Position numbers and translations under genes: made by a program. Below the pieces are notes generated by a model. It was not told the origin of the DNA, made no database searches, and saw only the letters and a list, made by a program, of their open reading frames with translations. A DNA stretch of 11,084 nucleotides, taken from positions 1 to 11,084 of the forward strand of contig JAQTPJ010000015.1 in the NCBI GenBank assembly GCA_028712915.1. The letters are read 5' to 3'. The stretch comes from Candidatus Omnitrophota bacterium (GTDB taxonomy: Bacteria > Omnitrophota > Gorgyraeia > Velamenicoccales > JABMQK01). This document shows, in pieces, positions 3,942 to 9,876 of the stretch. The stretch's first letter is position 1, and each line of letters opens with the position of its first letter.

Positions 3942-6104
3942 TTAGATGAGCGACGGCATTTCTAATGCCGGATGCTTTGCCTTATTGAGAAACTCCAAGA
4001 GTTGTTCTAAAGTAGTAGCGCTGGTTTCATCTGCTATCTTACTTACAAAATCTGGGTCGCCTATTTCTTTTGCCCTTTCCTCTAATTTTGCCTGCAGAAA
4101 TTCCTTTAAATCTTTGGGCATCCAGACAATTCTTTTTATGCCGCCTTCGGCTAAGATAAATTTCTTACTGGTTAAATAAAGTTTCCCTACGCCCAAAAAT
4201 CCCGGCGTCTGCACCCCGCCTCCGACGGAACTTGCCAAAGTCGTAAAGGTCATGCCTAATGGAGTATCCCCGGCATAATCACGGTGAACTATCATTACCC
4301 CGTTTGCCTCCGGCACCATAGCCACAATACACTCAAAACAGCCACAGCTGGATTGAGGGGATTCTATAAGAGAATACATGCTAACTTTATCAATGGTGCT
4401 GTTGGATTTTTTATATACAAAATCATTTATATTTTTCCACTGGCCTAATCTGTCATCCAGAATTTTACCTTTCTGAATAGGCTGATTTGCGCCAGCAGGG
4501 CTTATCTGGAAATTCGCCTTGGCGTCCAGCCAGGAATACGCCCCGCATAAACCAAGCCTTTCAGGCGTAATAACACAAATGTGATTGGGGGCGAACGACT
4601 GGCACAAGGCGCAGCTGTAAAAATCCTCAACAGCCTCATCAGTCATACCGCTTAACCTATCGTCTCTCTTTGTATAACTAAGCCTCGCTTCCTTAATCTT
4701 TTCTTCCACATCTTTCTTATTGGAATAAATTTTTACCTGCACCTTATCCACAATCGCAGAGTATTCCTGATGTATCATGGCGTGGAGAATTACTCCGAAA
4801 TGTTTAAGCCTAAGCCCTTTCTTGAATGCCTCTTGGCTTATCCTGACCCAGATTATATCGCGCTGGCCGATATGCATTATGCCCTGGGCTTCATTTAAAT
4901 AACGATGAAGCTGCCTTTCTAATATGGGCTCAAAATCTTCTTTTGCGCTGCGCGCGGCAACTTCCACAATTATTCCCAATGGCAAAGATTGCTCTTTGAT
5001 TACGTCTATATCCGGGCCTATTAATTCGACTTTGCCGTCTTCCACCTTATCCATATCCACGTATTTTAAAAACTCAAAACCCATCGCCTTCTTGCCGCCG
5101 AATTCCACGTAGAGATTTTCTTTTCTTACGCGTTCGCCTTCAAATGCCGGGCCGTATAGAACCGGAATATCCAACTTATGTACTTTGATTTTTATGTCGC
5201 GGGTTTCTACGCATCGCGCGACTATCTTTTTGTAATCTTTTTCTACGACGATGGCTTCAAATTTCGTAGTTTCAATCTTCGGCACTGAAGGGGCATCCAT
5301 ATCGGTAATAATGGGAAACCCTAAGTTTAAAACCCCCATACCGGTCGTTACGATAACCTCGTCTAATTTTCCCAATACGAGCACAAAAGCCGGCACGCGC
5401 TCCTGGCAATATTCTAAATTCTTTTTCCACTCGCCGCTCTTACATCCGCCGTATATCAGCGGCGCGCGTATGGCGAAATTTACCGCGAAAATGCTTGATA
5501 GCGCGTCAGGTCCTAATGGGACAATATAATTATCAAGGCCGACTTCCACGCCTTCTTTCTTCAACTGGTCAGCTAAAGTCATTCCATCAACATCGCCCAC
5601 CAGTATGCTGACAATATTTTTCTCCTGAAACCCTCTGATTATATCTGCGGCTGCGGAGGAATCCTTCGGCCTGCCTAAAATAACGGCGATACCGGCGATT
5701 CTTCCGTCGACCAGCTGCAGCCCCAGGGAACGCAGGATTGTATCGGGGATAAAACCTATCCAACCAGAACCTGCTGTTTTGCCCTTGGCGTAATTAATAG
5801 CGGTTAACAACTCCTCGCAAAAAAGCGTTGCCAACCCCTGATTCAAGAAGCCATTTAAATAAGGAACATTTAACCCGTTATCAAGCGCCTGGCCCTGCCA
5901 TAACTTCCTGGCGCTGGCTATTATGTCTTTAGCCTGGCTTGCTGTTTTTATCTCCTTGCCCAACAGCGCATAAGCCAAAGGCAGATGATAGGCGGTATCT
6001 TTAAACTCAATATTCTGATCAGGGCTAAGCTCTTTTAAAGAGGCCTCTGCCATATCGATAATACTTTTTGAGGTATCGTTTATTAATTTTGCTAATTCTG
6101 ACAT
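3942..6104 (-). CDS. acsB: Acetyl-CoA synthase, CODH/ACS complex catalytic subunit
   Basis: AcsB joins a corrinoid-bound methyl group, CO and CoA into acetyl-CoA, the last step of the Wood-Ljungdahl pathway. The 720-residue protein carries every A-cluster ligand. Cys498, Cys501, Cys510 and Cys520 match the C-x2-C-x8-C-x9-C set that holds the [4Fe-4S] cluster. The distal-nickel CGC motif is at 587-589, 67 residues after the last cluster Cys. These spacings equal those of Moorella AcsB (506, 509, 518, 528, 595-597) with a constant offset of eight. The N-terminal region of about 310 residues, which contacts the CO dehydrogenase subunit in bacterial enzymes and is absent from archaeal CdhC, is present. 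The start overlaps the preceding oxidoreductase gene by 13 bases, and AAGGAG precedes the ATG. No CODH gene lies in the window, so the partner must be encoded elsewhere. Confidence 0.97.
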   Translation of the reverse strand: MSELAKLINDTSKSIIDMAEASLKELSPDQNIEFKDTAYHLPLAYALLGKEIKTASQAKDIIASARKLWQGQALDNGLNVPYLNGFLNQGLATLFCEELLTAINYAKGKTAGSGWIGFIPDTILRSLGLQLVDGRIAGIAVILGRPKDSSAAADIIRGFQEKNIVSILVGDVDGMTLADQLKKEGVEVGLDNYIVPLGPDALSSIFAVNFAIRAPLIYGGCKSGEWKKNLEYCQERVPAFVLVLGKLDEVIVTTGMGVLNLGFPIITDMDAPSVPKIETTKFEAIVVEKDYKKIVARCVETRDIKIKVHKLDIPVLYGPAFEGERVRKENLYVEFGGKKAMGFEFLKYVDMDKVEDGKVELIGPDIDVIKEQSLPLGIIVEVAARSAKEDFEPILERQLHRYLNEAQGIMHIGQRDIIWVRISQEAFKKGLRLKHFGVILHAMIHQEYSAIVDKVQVKIYSNKKDVEEKIKEARLSYTKRDDRLSGMTDEAVEDFYSCALCQSFAPNHICVITPERLGLCGAYSWLDAKANFQISPAGANQPIQKGKILDDRLGQWKNINDFVYKKSNSTIDKVSMYSLIESPQSSCGCFECIVAMVPEANGVMIVHRDYAGDTPLGMTFTTLASSVGGGVQTPGFLGVGKLYLTSKKFILAEGGIKRIVWMPKDLKEFLQAKLEERAKEIGDPDFVSKIADETSATTLEQLLEFLNKAKHPALEMPSLI

Positions 6105-6958
6105 ATGCTCCTTCCCGCTGCCGTTCCTTCCTGCTCAGCGTTTACCCATGAATATTGCTTTTCCTGTCCTCTAATTTCAGCGACATCTCCTGCCGCATAA
6201 ATATCCTGTACACTTGTTAACATCGAAGAATCAACCATTATGCCGTTATTGCACTCAATAGAAGTTTCTTTTACCAAATCAATATTCGGCGACAATACCT
6301 GCGTATAGACGACCAAATTTGTGCCGATTATTTTGTTGTTGGATAATTTTACCGCTTTTATATCGCCTTCGCCGAGTATCTCCTGAATCTGCGCGTCGCT
6401 AATATGCTCAACCAAATCCATCTGCAGGCCTTCTTTGAGCTGGCTGCGCAATAATTTAACTTCTATTTTCCTGCGCACAAAAAATTCCGTTAATTTGTCG
6501 GCAATGCCATTATCGCCTGCGATACAGACTGTCTGCAGGAGCGGTATTATCTCTAAAATATGCTTAACATCGTCTAAATTATAAATAGAAACCACGCCGT
6601 TCTTATTTACGCCTTTTATCTGCGGCATCTTAGGCTTCCTGCCGCAGGCTATAACTAACTTATCAAACTCCAAAAACCCTTTTTCCTTAAAATAAATCCT
6701 CTTTTTTGACGGATCAACCGCGGAAACTATATTATTTACAAGTTCGATATTATTCCTCTGGTAGAAATCCTGATAGGGCTCGAACAAAGCAGACTCTTTT
6801 ACTTGCTGATACAGATAATCAAACAGCTTGAATCTCTGGTAAGCCGGCCGATTTTCGTCGGATACTATGGTAATTTTGCTCTCTGCATCCTGCTGGCGTA
6901 TAGCGCTTGCGCAAGACAGGCCTGCTGCGGAATTACCTATTATAATAATGCTTCTCAT
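6092..6958 (-). CDS. Short FAD-dependent pyridine-nucleotide oxidoreductase-like protein
   Basis: The 288-residue protein resembles the flavin domains of NirB and rubredoxin-reductase type enzymes. An N-terminal dinucleotide fold starts IIIIGNSAAGLSCASAI (4-20), the family's tyrosine/arginine region appears as AYQRFKLFDYL (39-49), and the C-terminal FAD motif is IYAAGDVAE (253-261) followed by a W-x2-A-x2-QG-like segment. The second dinucleotide fold, normally GGGxxG for NAD(P)H, is degenerate here (IAGDNGIAD, 146-154). It ends right after the FAD domain, so it lacks the C-terminal dimerisation domain of roughly 400-residue relatives. There is no CxxC redox pair. Its ATG follows the metF TAA with no gap and its end overlaps acsB by 13 bases, so the three are translationally coupled. 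A role in electron supply to MetF or in AcsB activation is inference only. Confidence 0.75.
   Translation of the reverse strand: MRSIIIIGNSAAGLSCASAIRQQDAESKITIVSDENRPAYQRFKLFDYLYQQVKESALFEPYQDFYQRNNIELVNNIVSAVDPSKKRIYFKEKGFLEFDKLVIACGRKPKMPQIKGVNKNGVVSIYNLDDVKHILEIIPLLQTVCIAGDNGIADKLTEFFVRRKIEVKLLRSQLKEGLQMDLVEHISDAQIQEILGEGDIKAVKLSNNKIIGTNLVVYTQVLSPNIDLVKETSIECNNGIMVDSSMLTSVQDIYAAGDVAEIRGQEKQYSWVNAEQEGTAAGRSICQN
6108..6113 (-). promoter_or_regulatory. Shine-Dalgarno sequence of acsB inside the upstream gene
   Basis: AAGGAG reads at 6113-6108, three bases before the acsB ATG at 6104. It lies within the last codons of the oxidoreductase gene and supports the overlapping start. Confidence 0.6.
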
Positions 6959-7831
6959 TTAGAAACCAGCGCCTTTTAATATGTCAGGTACTAATTTATC
7001 CCAGCCTAAAGGCATAAGGTGTATGCCTGAACATAGAGGTTTTAACTCTTTAATCAGGCGGACGGCAATCTCGACGCTCTTTTTAGGGCGGTCTTCCTTG
7101 GGAACCTCGGCAATTTCTTTTATGAGCGCGTCCGGCACATAGACTCCGGAGACATTCTCGTTCATATATTTTGCCATACCTGCGGATTTCAATAAAACTA
7201 TCCCCGCCAGGATCTTTGTCTTAAGGTGCTTTGTATTATCCAGAAACTTTTTAAATAAATCTATATCATAAACAGCCTGCGTCTGAAAGAACTGCGCGCC
7301 TGCCGCTATCTTCTTTTCCATTTTTATAACCTCGGGCTCCAAAGGGTCTGCCCCGGGATTGACTACTGCCCCTATAAAAAAGTTCGGAGTGCCTTTTAAT
7401 TCGTTTCCCTTCATATCCTTGCCTTCCTGCAGAGTCTTAGCCACCTGAATAAGCTGGACAGAATCCAAATCAAAAACAGGCTTTGCCTCGGGATGGTCTC
7501 CCAAAGTTGTATGGTCTCCGGTAAGCAATAAAACATTTTCTATCCCTAAAACTGAGGCGGAAAGCAGATCTGATTGCAATGCCAGGCGGTTCCTATCCCG
7601 GCAGGTAATCTGCAGTATCGGCTCTATGCCTTTTTCTTTCAGGAGGCGGCAGACAGCCAGAGAACCCAACCGCATCACAGAGCTCTGCAGGTCAGTAACG
7701 TTTATGGCGTCAACCTTATCCTTAATTAATTCGGCGTCTTCTAAAGCCTCTTTAATTGCGGTTCCTTTGGGAGGGCCTATTTCGCTCGTAATTACGAATT
7801 TCCCTACTTCTAATCTTTCGCGTAAAGACAT
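6959..7831 (-). CDS. metF: Methylenetetrahydrofolate reductase, acetogen-type MetF
   Basis: MetF is a cytoplasmic FAD enzyme that reduces 5,10-methylene-THF to 5-methyl-THF, the methyl donor for acetyl-CoA synthesis and methionine. The 290-residue protein shows the family residues: Glu17 in SEIGPP (E. coli Glu28), Asp106 in LLTGD (E. coli Asp120) and Gln185 in FFQTQAVYD (E. coli Gln183). The GIVLLKSAGMAKYMN segment (210-224) replaces the E. coli region containing Phe223, the residue that stacks NADH. By my alignment that position is Ala217. In acetogens this short MetF type often works with a MetV partner, which is absent here. The gene starts five bases after the lipoprotein stop, and its TAA directly abuts the ATG of the flavoprotein gene. 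That flavoprotein is therefore a candidate redox partner, though this is inferred from position only. Confidence 0.93.
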   Translation of the reverse strand: MSLRERLEVGKFVITSEIGPPKGTAIKEALEDAELIKDKVDAINVTDLQSSVMRLGSLAVCRLLKEKGIEPILQITCRDRNRLALQSDLLSASVLGIENVLLLTGDHTTLGDHPEAKPVFDLDSVQLIQVAKTLQEGKDMKGNELKGTPNFFIGAVVNPGADPLEPEVIKMEKKIAAGAQFFQTQAVYDIDLFKKFLDNTKHLKTKILAGIVLLKSAGMAKYMNENVSGVYVPDALIKEIAEVPKEDRPKKSVEIAVRLIKELKPLCSGIHLMPLGWDKLVPDILKGAGF

Positions 7832-7836
7832 CTTAA

Positions 7837-8379
7837 TTACCTGGTTTTGCTTTTTATGAGCTGGAAGGAATCCAGAAATCTTTTTATATTATAAGAATCA
7901 GACCATTTTTTATCGGTAGTAACCATCAATTGATACACCCGCTGGCCGACGAGAAAAAGTTTTCCTTTAACAACCGCCTCGCCATTACCTACCTCAATAG
8001 TAAATTCCCTGCCGGGATAACCCTCAATGGATATGTTTGACTCTTTAGTCAATACCCCTTGCACATTCCTGGCAGCGCCATCGCGTCCGTCATTCAATAT
8101 CTGGTCAACGCTCTTTAAATTAAAAAGTTCATCCGGATAATCAACATACCCTACAGCATAAATAAAATTATCGTCTTTTCTGTTGAGAGTGTACATATTC
8201 AAATAAGTGCGGCCAACCTGTGTATCCAATATAATCTTCTGTCCTTCTGGCTCTCCGGGCAACTGAACCGAAAAACCTCCTTCCACAGATGCATATTGTT
8301 TCCAACCCATGATATTGCAGCCTGAAATCAAAATAACAACTGCCCACAATACCAGCGATTTGAACATTTTTGTTTTCAT
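7837..8379 (-). CDS. Small lipoprotein with PsbP/DUF1795-like fold features, function unknown
   Basis: The 180-residue product has a lipoprotein signal: Lys2, Lys4 and Lys7, a hydrophobic stretch at 9-19, and the lipobox I-S-G-C with Cys21 as the lipid attachment site. The next residue is Asn rather than Asp, so in a diderm it would be expected to go to the outer membrane. The mature part has GGFSVQLPGEP (34-44), GYPGREFTIEV (120-130) and a closing RVYQLMVTTDKKW...FLDSFQL segment. I recognise this pattern from small PsbP-like or DUF1795-like domains, but assign no activity. It sits 18 or 19 bases after folD and five bases before metF, inside an otherwise cytoplasmic one-carbon operon. GAGG lies about six bases before the ATG; a second in-frame Met at residue 5 is possible. 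Confidence 0.75.
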   Translation of the reverse strand: MKTKMFKSLVLWAVVILISGCNIMGWKQYASVEGGFSVQLPGEPEGQKIILDTQVGRTYLNMYTLNRKDDNFIYAVGYVDYPDELFNLKSVDQILNDGRDGAARNVQGVLTKESNISIEGYPGREFTIEVGNGEAVVKGKLFLVGQRVYQLMVTTDKKWSDSYNIKRFLDSFQLIKSKTR

Positions 8380-8398: not shown

Positions 8399-9265
8399 TT
8401 ACCTGCTTTTTAAATTATGTATCTTGAACGCCTCGAGGGTATTTTTCATTAACATCGTGGTGGTAAGCGGCCCTACGCCCCCCGGCACAGGGGTAATAAA
8501 ACCTGCGCGTTTGGAGGCTTCTTCAAAATCAACATCGCCCACAATTTTATCCGCTACTTTATTTATCCCTACATCTATTACAATCGCGCCTTCTTTAACC
8601 CAATCGCCTTTAATCAAACCGGCCTTTCCCACGGCAACAACTAAAACCTCGGCTTTTTTCACATGTTCAGGCAAAACGCCGCGCTCGCCTGTGGCAATAT
8701 GGCATACAGTCGTAGTTGCAAACTTGGATAATAACATTAAACTCAAAGGCTTGCCCACAATTTCAGAGTGCCCCACGATTACAGCTTCTTTGCCGTATAA
8801 ATTAACGCCTGTTGATTCAATCAATGCCAGGCACGCGCTTGCCGTGCAGGGAGCCAACTTCCACTTGCCCAGTAAAACCTGGCCTAAATTCTGCGGATGC
8901 ATTCCTTCTGCATCTTTGGCAGGCTCGATTAAATTCACGAGCTTCTTAGCGTCTATTTGCGGCGGGACAGGCAGCTGCAAAATTACAGCCGACACACTTT
9001 TATCTTTATTTAACGAAATGATTTCTTCTTCGGCTTGTTTCTGCGTGGCTTCTTTGGGCAATCTCTTCAAAATATATTCTATTCCTAATCCCTGGGCTGT
9101 ATTTACCTGCGCCTTAAGGTAAACTTCCGAAGACGCGTTCTCTCCTATCTGAAGCGCCATCAACCTGGGGGATAAACCTGTATCTTTCTTTAAAGACTCC
9201 ACTTCATTTTTTATCTCTTCCTTGATTTTATCCGCTATGGGTTTTCCTTTTAACAGCTCTGCCAT
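8399..9265 (-). CDS. folD: Methylenetetrahydrofolate dehydrogenase (FolD), cyclohydrolase lysine replaced
   Basis: FolD normally oxidises methylene-THF to methenyl-THF and hydrolyses that to formyl-THF; in the Wood-Ljungdahl direction it runs in reverse. From the ATG at 9265 the protein has 288 residues and aligns end to end with E. coli FolD. The dinucleotide fold is VIVGHSEIVGKP (162-173), the QLP glutamine is Gln97, and the C-terminal PVPGGVGP is at 259-266. Unusually, the family motif Y-x3-K reads Y49-L-K-A-Q53, so the cyclohydrolase Lys (E. coli Lys56) is Gln. The folate-binding DVDG reads DAEG, with Glu120 in place of the second Asp. The dehydrogenase may therefore work without the cyclohydrolase. 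A GTG at 9268 could add one residue, but the ATG has AAGGAG at a better eight-base spacing. The start shares one base with the fchA stop, coupling the pair. Confidence 0.95.
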   Translation of the reverse strand: MAELLKGKPIADKIKEEIKNEVESLKKDTGLSPRLMALQIGENASSEVYLKAQVNTAQGLGIEYILKRLPKEATQKQAEEEIISLNKDKSVSAVILQLPVPPQIDAKKLVNLIEPAKDAEGMHPQNLGQVLLGKWKLAPCTASACLALIESTGVNLYGKEAVIVGHSEIVGKPLSLMLLSKFATTTVCHIATGERGVLPEHVKKAEVLVVAVGKAGLIKGDWVKEGAIVIDVGINKVADKIVGDVDFEEASKRAGFITPVPGGVGPLTTTMLMKNTLEAFKIHNLKSR

Positions 9266-9876
9266 CACTTCAGCTCCTTAGTAGTAAAATTAATGATACT
9301 CTTCTTAATATTCGCGATATCTTTTGCCTGCTCGTTTGTTGCTTTGTTAATATTGGAAACAAATTCTGTGTCTTTTATGCTCTTTAAGTTTATCTTTACG
9401 TTATACAAAGCGCTATAGTATGCGGCGGATAACAACTCCGCTGCCACAGCTATATCGCTTATTAAATTCTTATTAGTCCTGTCCATAATTTCGCGGCATA
9501 ACTTTATCGCCTGGTAACTGTGGTTGCATATCTGGATAGGAACCGCCGCGGCGTCTTTAAGCGCCTTCTCCTTGACCGTGCCGTCCTGCGAACTGAATGT
9601 CAGAGATAATTTCTTATACGCCTGGACATCCTTATCTATCAATGCGGTAATTTTATCTTTTAACTCTTTGGCTGCGTCTAATTTATCCTTCAGCTCAATC
9701 TCAAATTCTTTATACTTCTCTTTGCCGATTGTGTAATTTAAAACCATGATGGCAAGCGAAACACCCAATGCCCCTGTCAAAGCCGCAGCGCTGCCTCCGC
9801 CGGGCGCAGGCATCTTTGCCGCCAGGTCAGCCAGGTATTTGTTAATCGAACCTTCGATATAAATATCTTTTTCCAT
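9265..9876 (-). CDS. fchA: Methenyltetrahydrofolate cyclohydrolase (FchA; cyclodeaminase family)
   Basis: The 203-residue protein belongs to the cyclodeaminase/cyclohydrolase family, which interconverts methenyl-THF and 10-formyl-THF or deaminates formimino-THF. Family marks are PAPGGGSAAAL (23-33), DKDVQAY (81-87) and SDIAVAAELLSAAYYSALYNVKINL-like helices (starting at 140). Length matches stand-alone FchA proteins, and there is no formiminotransferase domain. No histidine-degradation genes are nearby, so the cyclohydrolase role in the folate methyl branch is more likely. The ATG at 9876 places the PAPGGGS motif at its usual distance from the N-terminus. There is no Shine-Dalgarno; a strong promoter ends only about 11 bases upstream, so the message is probably near leaderless. 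The stop TGA overlaps the folD ATG by one base. It is the first gene of the one-carbon operon. Confidence 0.9.
   Translation of the reverse strand: MEKDIYIEGSINKYLADLAAKMPAPGGGSAAALTGALGVSLAIMVLNYTIGKEKYKEFEIELKDKLDAAKELKDKITALIDKDVQAYKKLSLTFSSQDGTVKEKALKDAAAVPIQICNHSYQAIKLCREIMDRTNKNLISDIAVAAELLSAAYYSALYNVKINLKSIKDTEFVSNINKATNEQAKDIANIKKSIINFTTKELK
9274..9279 (-). promoter_or_regulatory. Shine-Dalgarno sequence deciding the folD start
   Basis: AAGGAG reads at 9279-9274, eight bases before the ATG at 9265 and five before the overlapping GTG at 9268. The ATG is favoured, and it also gives the N-terminus MAELLKGK that aligns with E. coli MAAKIIDGK. Confidence 0.65.

Follow-up and report, generated by a model that had tools for sequence, protein, structure and literature searches.

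A FolD protein without the cyclohydrolase lysine, encoded beside a stand-alone FchA, as a predicted dehydrogenase-only enzyme of Omnitrophota

The window, as we call the whole analysed stretch of 11,084 nucleotides, comes from a Candidatus Omnitrophota assembly of 1.06 Mb in 187 contigs (76% complete). Its minus strand carries a series of genes that includes, in this order, those for RNase HII and a UPF0102 protein, fchA, folD, an ORF of 180 aa, metF, an oxidoreductase gene and acsB (Table 1); this set is the methyl branch of the Wood-Ljungdahl pathway together with acetyl-CoA synthase. The fchA gene lies directly upstream of folD, and the one-base overlap described in the original prediction is real: the last base of fchA is the A of the folD ATG. 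A GTG at 9268-9266 offers an alternative folD start. The two genes are probably co-transcribed and translationally coupled. Close spacing recurs elsewhere: among the 110 linked fchA-folD pairs described below, 53 overlap, 26 have a gap of 0-20 bases, 15 one of 21-60 bases and 16 one of more than 60 bases, with start codons assigned by a rule of thumb. A single FolD (one PF02882 match) is present in the 76% complete assembly, so no other FolD was found there to supply a cyclohydrolase. Further along the strand, the pyridine-nucleotide-disulphide oxidoreductase gene follows metF directly and overlaps acsB by 13 bases; its product is perhaps an electron-transfer partner of MetF.

Table 1. Features of the fchA-folD locus and active-site codons of FolD in the window
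Feature	Position	Strand	Description
fchA	9265..9876	-	203 aa; PF04961 181 bits; predicted methenyl-THF cyclohydrolase
AAGGAG, Shine-Dalgarno-like	9274..9279	-	within fchA, 8 bases ahead of the folD ATG; putative, picked out by eye
folD	8399..9265	-	288 aa; PF00763 106.6 bits and PF02882 206.4 bits; predicted dehydrogenase-only methylene-THF dehydrogenase
Tyr49 of FolD	codon TAC 9119..9121	-	equivalent of human Tyr52
Gln53 of FolD	codon CAG 9107..9109	-	position of the cyclohydrolase Lys (human Lys56, E. coli Lys54)
Gln97 of FolD	codon CAG 8975..8977	-	equivalent of human Gln100; kept in the window FolD
Glu120 of FolD	codon GAA 8906..8908	-	position of the pterin-binding Asp (human Asp125)
ORF	7837..8379	-	180 aa; lipoprotein-like start (by eye); without a family match
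metF-like methylene-THF reductase	6959..7831	-	290 aa; PF02219 131.2 bits
Short pyridine-nucleotide-disulphide oxidoreductase	6092..6958	-	288 aa; PF07992 106.3 bits
acsB, acetyl-CoA synthase subunit	3942..6104	-	720 aa; PF19436 399.3 bits; NF040764 980.2 bits (cut-off 800)

Alignment of the window FolD (residues 2-281) with human MTHFD1 (PDB 1a4i) equates Tyr49, Gln53, Gln97 and Glu120 with Tyr52, Lys56, Gln100 and Asp125; together with a reading of the minus strand, it confirms both the identity of Gln53 and Glu120 and the codon positions first given for them. The alignment had been described as free of gaps in this region, which holds between Tyr49 and Gln97 of the window protein but not beyond, where two residues are gapped between Gln97 and Glu120; that description referred to E. 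coli FolD (1b0a), which is also matched (residues 2-280 on 3-279) and was checked only by way of the human protein and Lys-type relatives. The seven key residues of MTHFD1 are Tyr52; Lys56 and Gln100, which act in catalysis; Asp125, which binds the pterin; and an arginine-serine-histidine set that binds the 2'-phosphate of NADP (PMC3368264). The window FolD shares with the bifunctional FolD/MTHFD enzymes of E. coli and human the fold (PF00763 and PF02882, both over the cut-off), the Tyr, the Gln100 equivalent and the NAD(P) domain, and is up to 46% identical to Lys-type loci among the best 80 of at least 591, but it has neither the YxxxK motif with its catalytic Lys nor the pterin-binding Asp. 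No NCBIfam model of bifunctional FolD reached its cut-off among the 25 families shown (30 matched), the best scoring 301.4 versus 355 bits. FchA, for its part, is a protein of 203 aa with PF04961 (FTCD_C) alone and none of the transferase domains of FTCD. The window thus holds both parts expected of a dehydrogenase-only FolD served by FchA: a FolD family member without the Lys and, adjacent in the same genome, a stand-alone FTCD_C protein.

What becomes of a FolD that loses this Lys? The E. coli K54N variant retains about 19% of its dehydrogenase activity while its cyclohydrolase is undetectable, and Q98H retains about 8% of the dehydrogenase with the cyclohydrolase estimated at 1%, according to PMC5688156. 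The premise that the cyclohydrolase needs the Lys, while dehydrogenase activity can survive its replacement, is thus documented for a close analogue, in which Asn rather than Gln takes its place. Since the changes at Lys54 and Gln98 of the E. coli enzyme also lower the dehydrogenase (PMC5688156), the Gln-type enzymes must have compensated.

Is the substitution a peculiarity of one genome? FolD sequences of at least 230 aa (shorter pieces were dropped) gave 207 rows, 196 of them unique; by residue 53, the unique rows comprise 107 Gln-type, 74 Lys-type and 15 Ala/Ile/Leu-type sequences. In the 87 FolDs from Omnitrophota, the window's own included, residue 53 is Gln in 83, Leu in three and Ile in one, and residue 120 is Glu in 86 and Asp in one. 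The absence of the cyclohydrolase Lys is therefore confirmed, but as a phylum-wide state (0/87 Lys, fixed among the typed FolDs) and not as a change in one genome. In family f8 of this phylum (loci L055, L056, L168 and L179), FolD has Leu or Ile at 53, Phe or Tyr at 97 and a long branch, which looks like a further change of the same site within the Gln clade.

The neighbouring gene is nearly as constant. An FTCD_C gene lies less than 500 bases from folD on the same strand in 79 of the 87 Omnitrophota rows and 844-1021 bases away in three more. Five rows have none linked: in one genome (G043) a piece of FTCD_C is cut at the contig end beside FolD, in two (G014 and G048) the gene is on another contig, in one (G064) it is elsewhere in the genome, and in the last (G137, 72% complete) a full-length Gln-type FolD is preceded by 1.5 kb of upstream sequence and FchA was not found. 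Whole genomes give the same picture. In a first set of 59 relatives, FolD is present in 58 and FchA in 58, and one genome (G010, 78% complete) lacks both; among 237 Omnitrophota genomes drawn from a larger group, the source genome included, 223 have FolD and FchA, three FolD alone, none FchA alone and 11 neither, and as these are drafts the absences are upper bounds. In two of the three FolD-alone genomes (G108 and G206), the FolD match starts inside the protein at contig base 5 or 21, so that any fchA preceding it would lie beyond the contig end; the third is the 72% complete one.

The original prediction proposed to check whether Gln at this position co-occurs with an adjacent fchA, and a FolD without the Lys does so in all three groups sampled. 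Linked fchA genes accompany 110 of the 196 unique rows (Omnitrophota, Armatimonadota and Clostridia), and all 110 of these FolDs are without the Lys; conversely, none of the 74 Lys-type rows, second copies included, has a linked FTCD_C gene in the stretch examined. The Clostridia and Armatimonadota samples were drawn by FchA, not by the residue, and the FolDs typed in them are those no more than 1.5 kb from FTCD_C. Among 46 genomes sampled from the class Clostridia, 14 had an FTCD_C match, giving 15 loci: 12 have a FolD within 1.5 kb (10 Ala, two Ile, no Lys) and three do not. The 121 Armatimonadota genomes yielded 31 with an FTCD_C match and 30 loci, 21 of which have a FolD nearby, always Gln, and nine of which have none within 1.5 kb; in three of the latter the frame is 570-596 aa long and may be a fused FTCD. 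One Armatimonadota genome (G405, L227:862-2007, minus strand) combines FTCD_C and 5-formyl-THF cyclo-ligase domains in a single frame of 382 aa.

A scan of named genomes matched at least 591 stretches, of which the best 80 FolD loci were typed: 71 are Lys-type and lack an FTCD_C gene in the stretches examined, and nine are Gln-type (four Omnitrophota, one Armatimonadota, one Planctomycetota, SAR324 and two Mesorhizobium). Fifty of the 71 Lys-type loci were chosen for a genome-wide search, and any FTCD_C protein was found in four of the 49 genomes searched: in one it is a fused FTCD encoded next to urocanase, in two it neighbours amidohydrolases and in one it scores 80.7 bits. In a Bipolaricaulota genome, a Lys-type FolD coexists with an unlinked FTCD_C protein that stands on its own, free of the FTCD transferase domains; in an Altarchaeum genome with a Lys-type FolD, FTCD_C was not found. 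In the Planctomycetota genome, the one FolD is of the Gln type, and FchA is present but unlinked. The case that the original prediction named as adverse, a Gln-type FolD in a genome without FchA, does occur outside Omnitrophota, in SAR324 and the two Mesorhizobium genomes, but is not counted as a refutation because each of the three carries one or two further FolDs of the Lys type. In SAR324 (L080:7277-12187), the Gln-type gene is flanked on one side by a FAD/GCV_T gene and on the other by a gene for a Rieske oxygenase. Among NCBIfam models, this oxygenase scores best against glycine betaine monooxygenase, at 145.5 bits versus a cut-off of 670; the Gln-type FolD might serve a demethylation cluster as its dedicated methylene-THF dehydrogenase. 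Around the Mesorhizobium gene at L120, no one-carbon genes were seen in the five neighbouring ORFs scanned.

Other positions of the active site behave less uniformly. Gln97, which partners the Lys, is conserved in the Lys-type rows (73 of 74), less so in the Gln-type rows (63 of 107) and replaced in all 15 Ala/Ile/Leu-type rows, a pattern that points to its relaxation once the Lys is gone. Position 120 is Asp in all 74 Lys-type rows and Glu in 88 of the 107 Gln-type rows. Glu120 had been noted alongside Gln53, but the two changes are separable, and Glu120 is rejected as a necessary part of the same loss: Asp is retained in 18 of 20 Gln-type rows from Armatimonadota and in 11 of 11 clostridial rows. 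The idea that Lys51 might partly compensate fares no better, as this position is not conserved (Lys in only 41/107 Gln-type and 4/74 Lys-type rows). The cofactor site differs too. Where the human enzyme binds the 2'-phosphate of NADP through Arg173 and Ser197 (PMC3368264), the window FolD has His166 and Ile190; Ile190 is found in 75 of 107 Gln-type rows, while Ser or Arg occupies the position in 67 of 74 Lys-type rows. Because His166 and Ile190 replace the Arg and Ser of the 2'-phosphate site, there is a hint that the Gln-type clade prefers NAD over NADP.

How many evolutionary events stand behind these counts? In an unrooted tree of 64 rows, built with the motif columns blanked, a deep Gln clade of 36 rows (two of them Leu) is split from the other 28 at support 99/96, and nine clostridial Ala/Ile rows are placed among the Lys-type rows. 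Two changes between Lys and non-Lys suffice, as they do in a 113-row quick tree; a tree with all non-Lys rows in one clade is not rejected (AU p 0.309), and an independent-pairs test, with 1-2 pairs, has no power. One or two evolutionary events thus underlie the large co-occurrence counts, and Fisher p-values overstate the evidence because the tree contains only two Lys/non-Lys changes. The stronger points are that the two samples drawn by FchA contain no exception and that the three Gln-type genomes without FchA have a Lys-type backup. As the tree is unrooted, gain and loss of the Lys are indistinguishable in it. It is conceivable, if unlikely, that the Gln clade (Omnitrophota, Armatimonadota, a Planctomycetota, SAR324 and Mesorhizobium) is an ancient NAD-preferring stand-alone dehydrogenase that never had the Lys, and that bifunctional FolD gained it later, making fchA redundant; if so, Lys or its absence would mark a switch, readable in genomes, between pathways of one enzyme and of two.

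Residues, linkage, co-occurrence and clade structure all support the central claim of the original prediction: judged from sequence, the window FolD is very likely a methylene-THF dehydrogenase only, with FchA as its cyclohydrolase partner, the two together replacing one bifunctional FolD. In such a relay, FolD would use a nicotinamide cofactor to interconvert 5,10-methylene-THF and 5,10-methenyl-THF; it would not hydrolyse methenyl-THF, having presumably lost the cyclohydrolase activity because the Lys of this step is Gln; and FchA would interconvert methenyl-THF and 10-formyl-THF. The relay would feed MetF and AcsB in the source genome; in relatives that lack AcsB, it would serve one-carbon metabolism in general. 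Against it stand the 72% complete genome that has a full-length Gln-type FolD and in which FchA was not found, the Bipolaricaulota genome with its Lys-type FolD and unlinked FTCD_C, the nine Armatimonadota and three clostridial FTCD_C loci that have no FolD within 1.5 kb, the lowered dehydrogenase of the E. coli Lys54 and Gln98 variants, and the score of FchA itself: 144.8 bits, below the cut-off of 275 for the NCBIfam FchA model NF045657.

This score, and the fact that PF04961 is common to cyclohydrolases and formimino-THF cyclodeaminases, leave room for a different reading, in which the FTCD_C protein is a cyclodeaminase or a structural partner and methenyl-THF is hydrolysed spontaneously, as has been argued to be possible in E. 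coli mutants (PMC5688156). We regard it as highly improbable: the best PDB match of the window protein is 7vg4, named methenyltetrahydrofolate cyclohydrolase (E 2.7e-25), FTCD_C genes lie beside formate-THF ligase at two loci (L191 and L232), and the linkage to folD recurs in three groups, all of which argues for FchA as a methenyl-THF cyclohydrolase. Could the Gln-type FolD itself still be bifunctional, with Gln53 serving the cyclohydrolase step, assisted by Gln97 or by some other group (Lys51, for example), and with FchA only adding capacity? The enzyme does keep its fold and part of the folate site, Tyr49 and Gln97 included, Glu for Asp at 120 is a conservative change, and named relatives are labelled bifunctional or dehydrogenase/cyclohydrolase, labels that are annotation only. 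Yet K54N leaves no detectable cyclohydrolase in E. coli, Gln97 is replaced in 44 of the 107 Gln-type rows, Lys51 is present in a minority of them, and FolD without FchA amounts to three of 237 genomes, two with cut genes and one incomplete; retained bifunctionality is thus highly improbable. Sequencing error or FolD decay confined to a single assembly of 187 contigs and 76% completeness has practically no chance of being the explanation and is rejected, as the same residues recur throughout the phylum, in relatives of 81% and 77% identity among others.

The dehydrogenase-only FolD with its FchA partner has counterparts elsewhere. In acetogenic and other Clostridia, a stand-alone FchA is likewise adjacent to a FolD whose catalytic Lys is missing in the 12 cases typed, but the residue in its place is Ala or Ile rather than Gln, Asp is kept at 120, Phe is at 97 in 10 of 11 full-length rows, and the sequences group with the Lys-type half of the tree and outside the Gln clade. 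The C. perfringens FolD is said to be dehydrogenase-only, a result ascribed to Aluri and colleagues in 2016. A FolD relative found by sequence (1edz, E 1.3e-12), which we take to be yeast MTD1, an NAD-dependent dehydrogenase-only enzyme, is very distant from the window FolD; it presumably has a different residue at the Lys position, and is not known to have an FchA partner. In Methylobacterium extorquens, the dehydrogenase is MtdA, which is not a FolD. The same split of the two reactions is found there, with mtdA and fch as separate genes (PMC9618320). A separate cyclohydrolase FchA in some microorganisms is mentioned in a further paper (PMC7219735, citing Aluri et al.), and T. acetatoxydans has fchA and folD near fhs (PMC3584212).

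Clostridial FolD/FchA pairs thus already exemplify the principle of one enzyme per step, and clusters of fchA and folD have been published (PMC3584212). New here are the Gln clade and its residues, the fixation in the Omnitrophota sample, the link to Armatimonadota and the residue-plus-neighbour rule. In the open-licence literature, we found no paper joining FolD, cyclohydrolase and Omnitrophota, none joining FolD, FchA, Clostridium perfringens and monofunctional, and no activity datum for a Gln-type FolD. Why does this matter? Named relatives are annotated as bifunctional, so pathway models credit FolD with a step that is probably beyond it, and one residue plus one neighbouring gene makes a simple sequence rule to tell one-enzyme from two-enzyme organisms. 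The Gln clade would also offer natural dehydrogenase-only enzymes with which to tease apart two reactions that share an active site.

Is the split an adaptation to the Wood-Ljungdahl pathway? As a general account this is rejected: PF19436, the AcsB family, has matches in 89 of the 237 Omnitrophota genomes versus 223 for FchA, absences in these drafts being upper bounds. Of the 223 genomes that have the FolD/FchA pair, at least 134 gave no AcsB match, so the pair looks like a general one-carbon module of Omnitrophota rather than a Wood-Ljungdahl speciality. Presence and completeness of the pathway vary within the phylum (PMC10066038). In four Omnitrophota genomes (G034, G051, G235 and G185; loci L235, L236, L237 and L238), AcsB itself carries in-frame inserts of about 150-570 aa. 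They occur at two sites adjoining Cys residues of the C-terminal part, residues that we take to be A-cluster ligands. Pfam finds Intein_splicing in all three loci scanned (L235-L237) and LAGLIDADG in two; the inserts are probably inteins in acetyl-CoA synthase.
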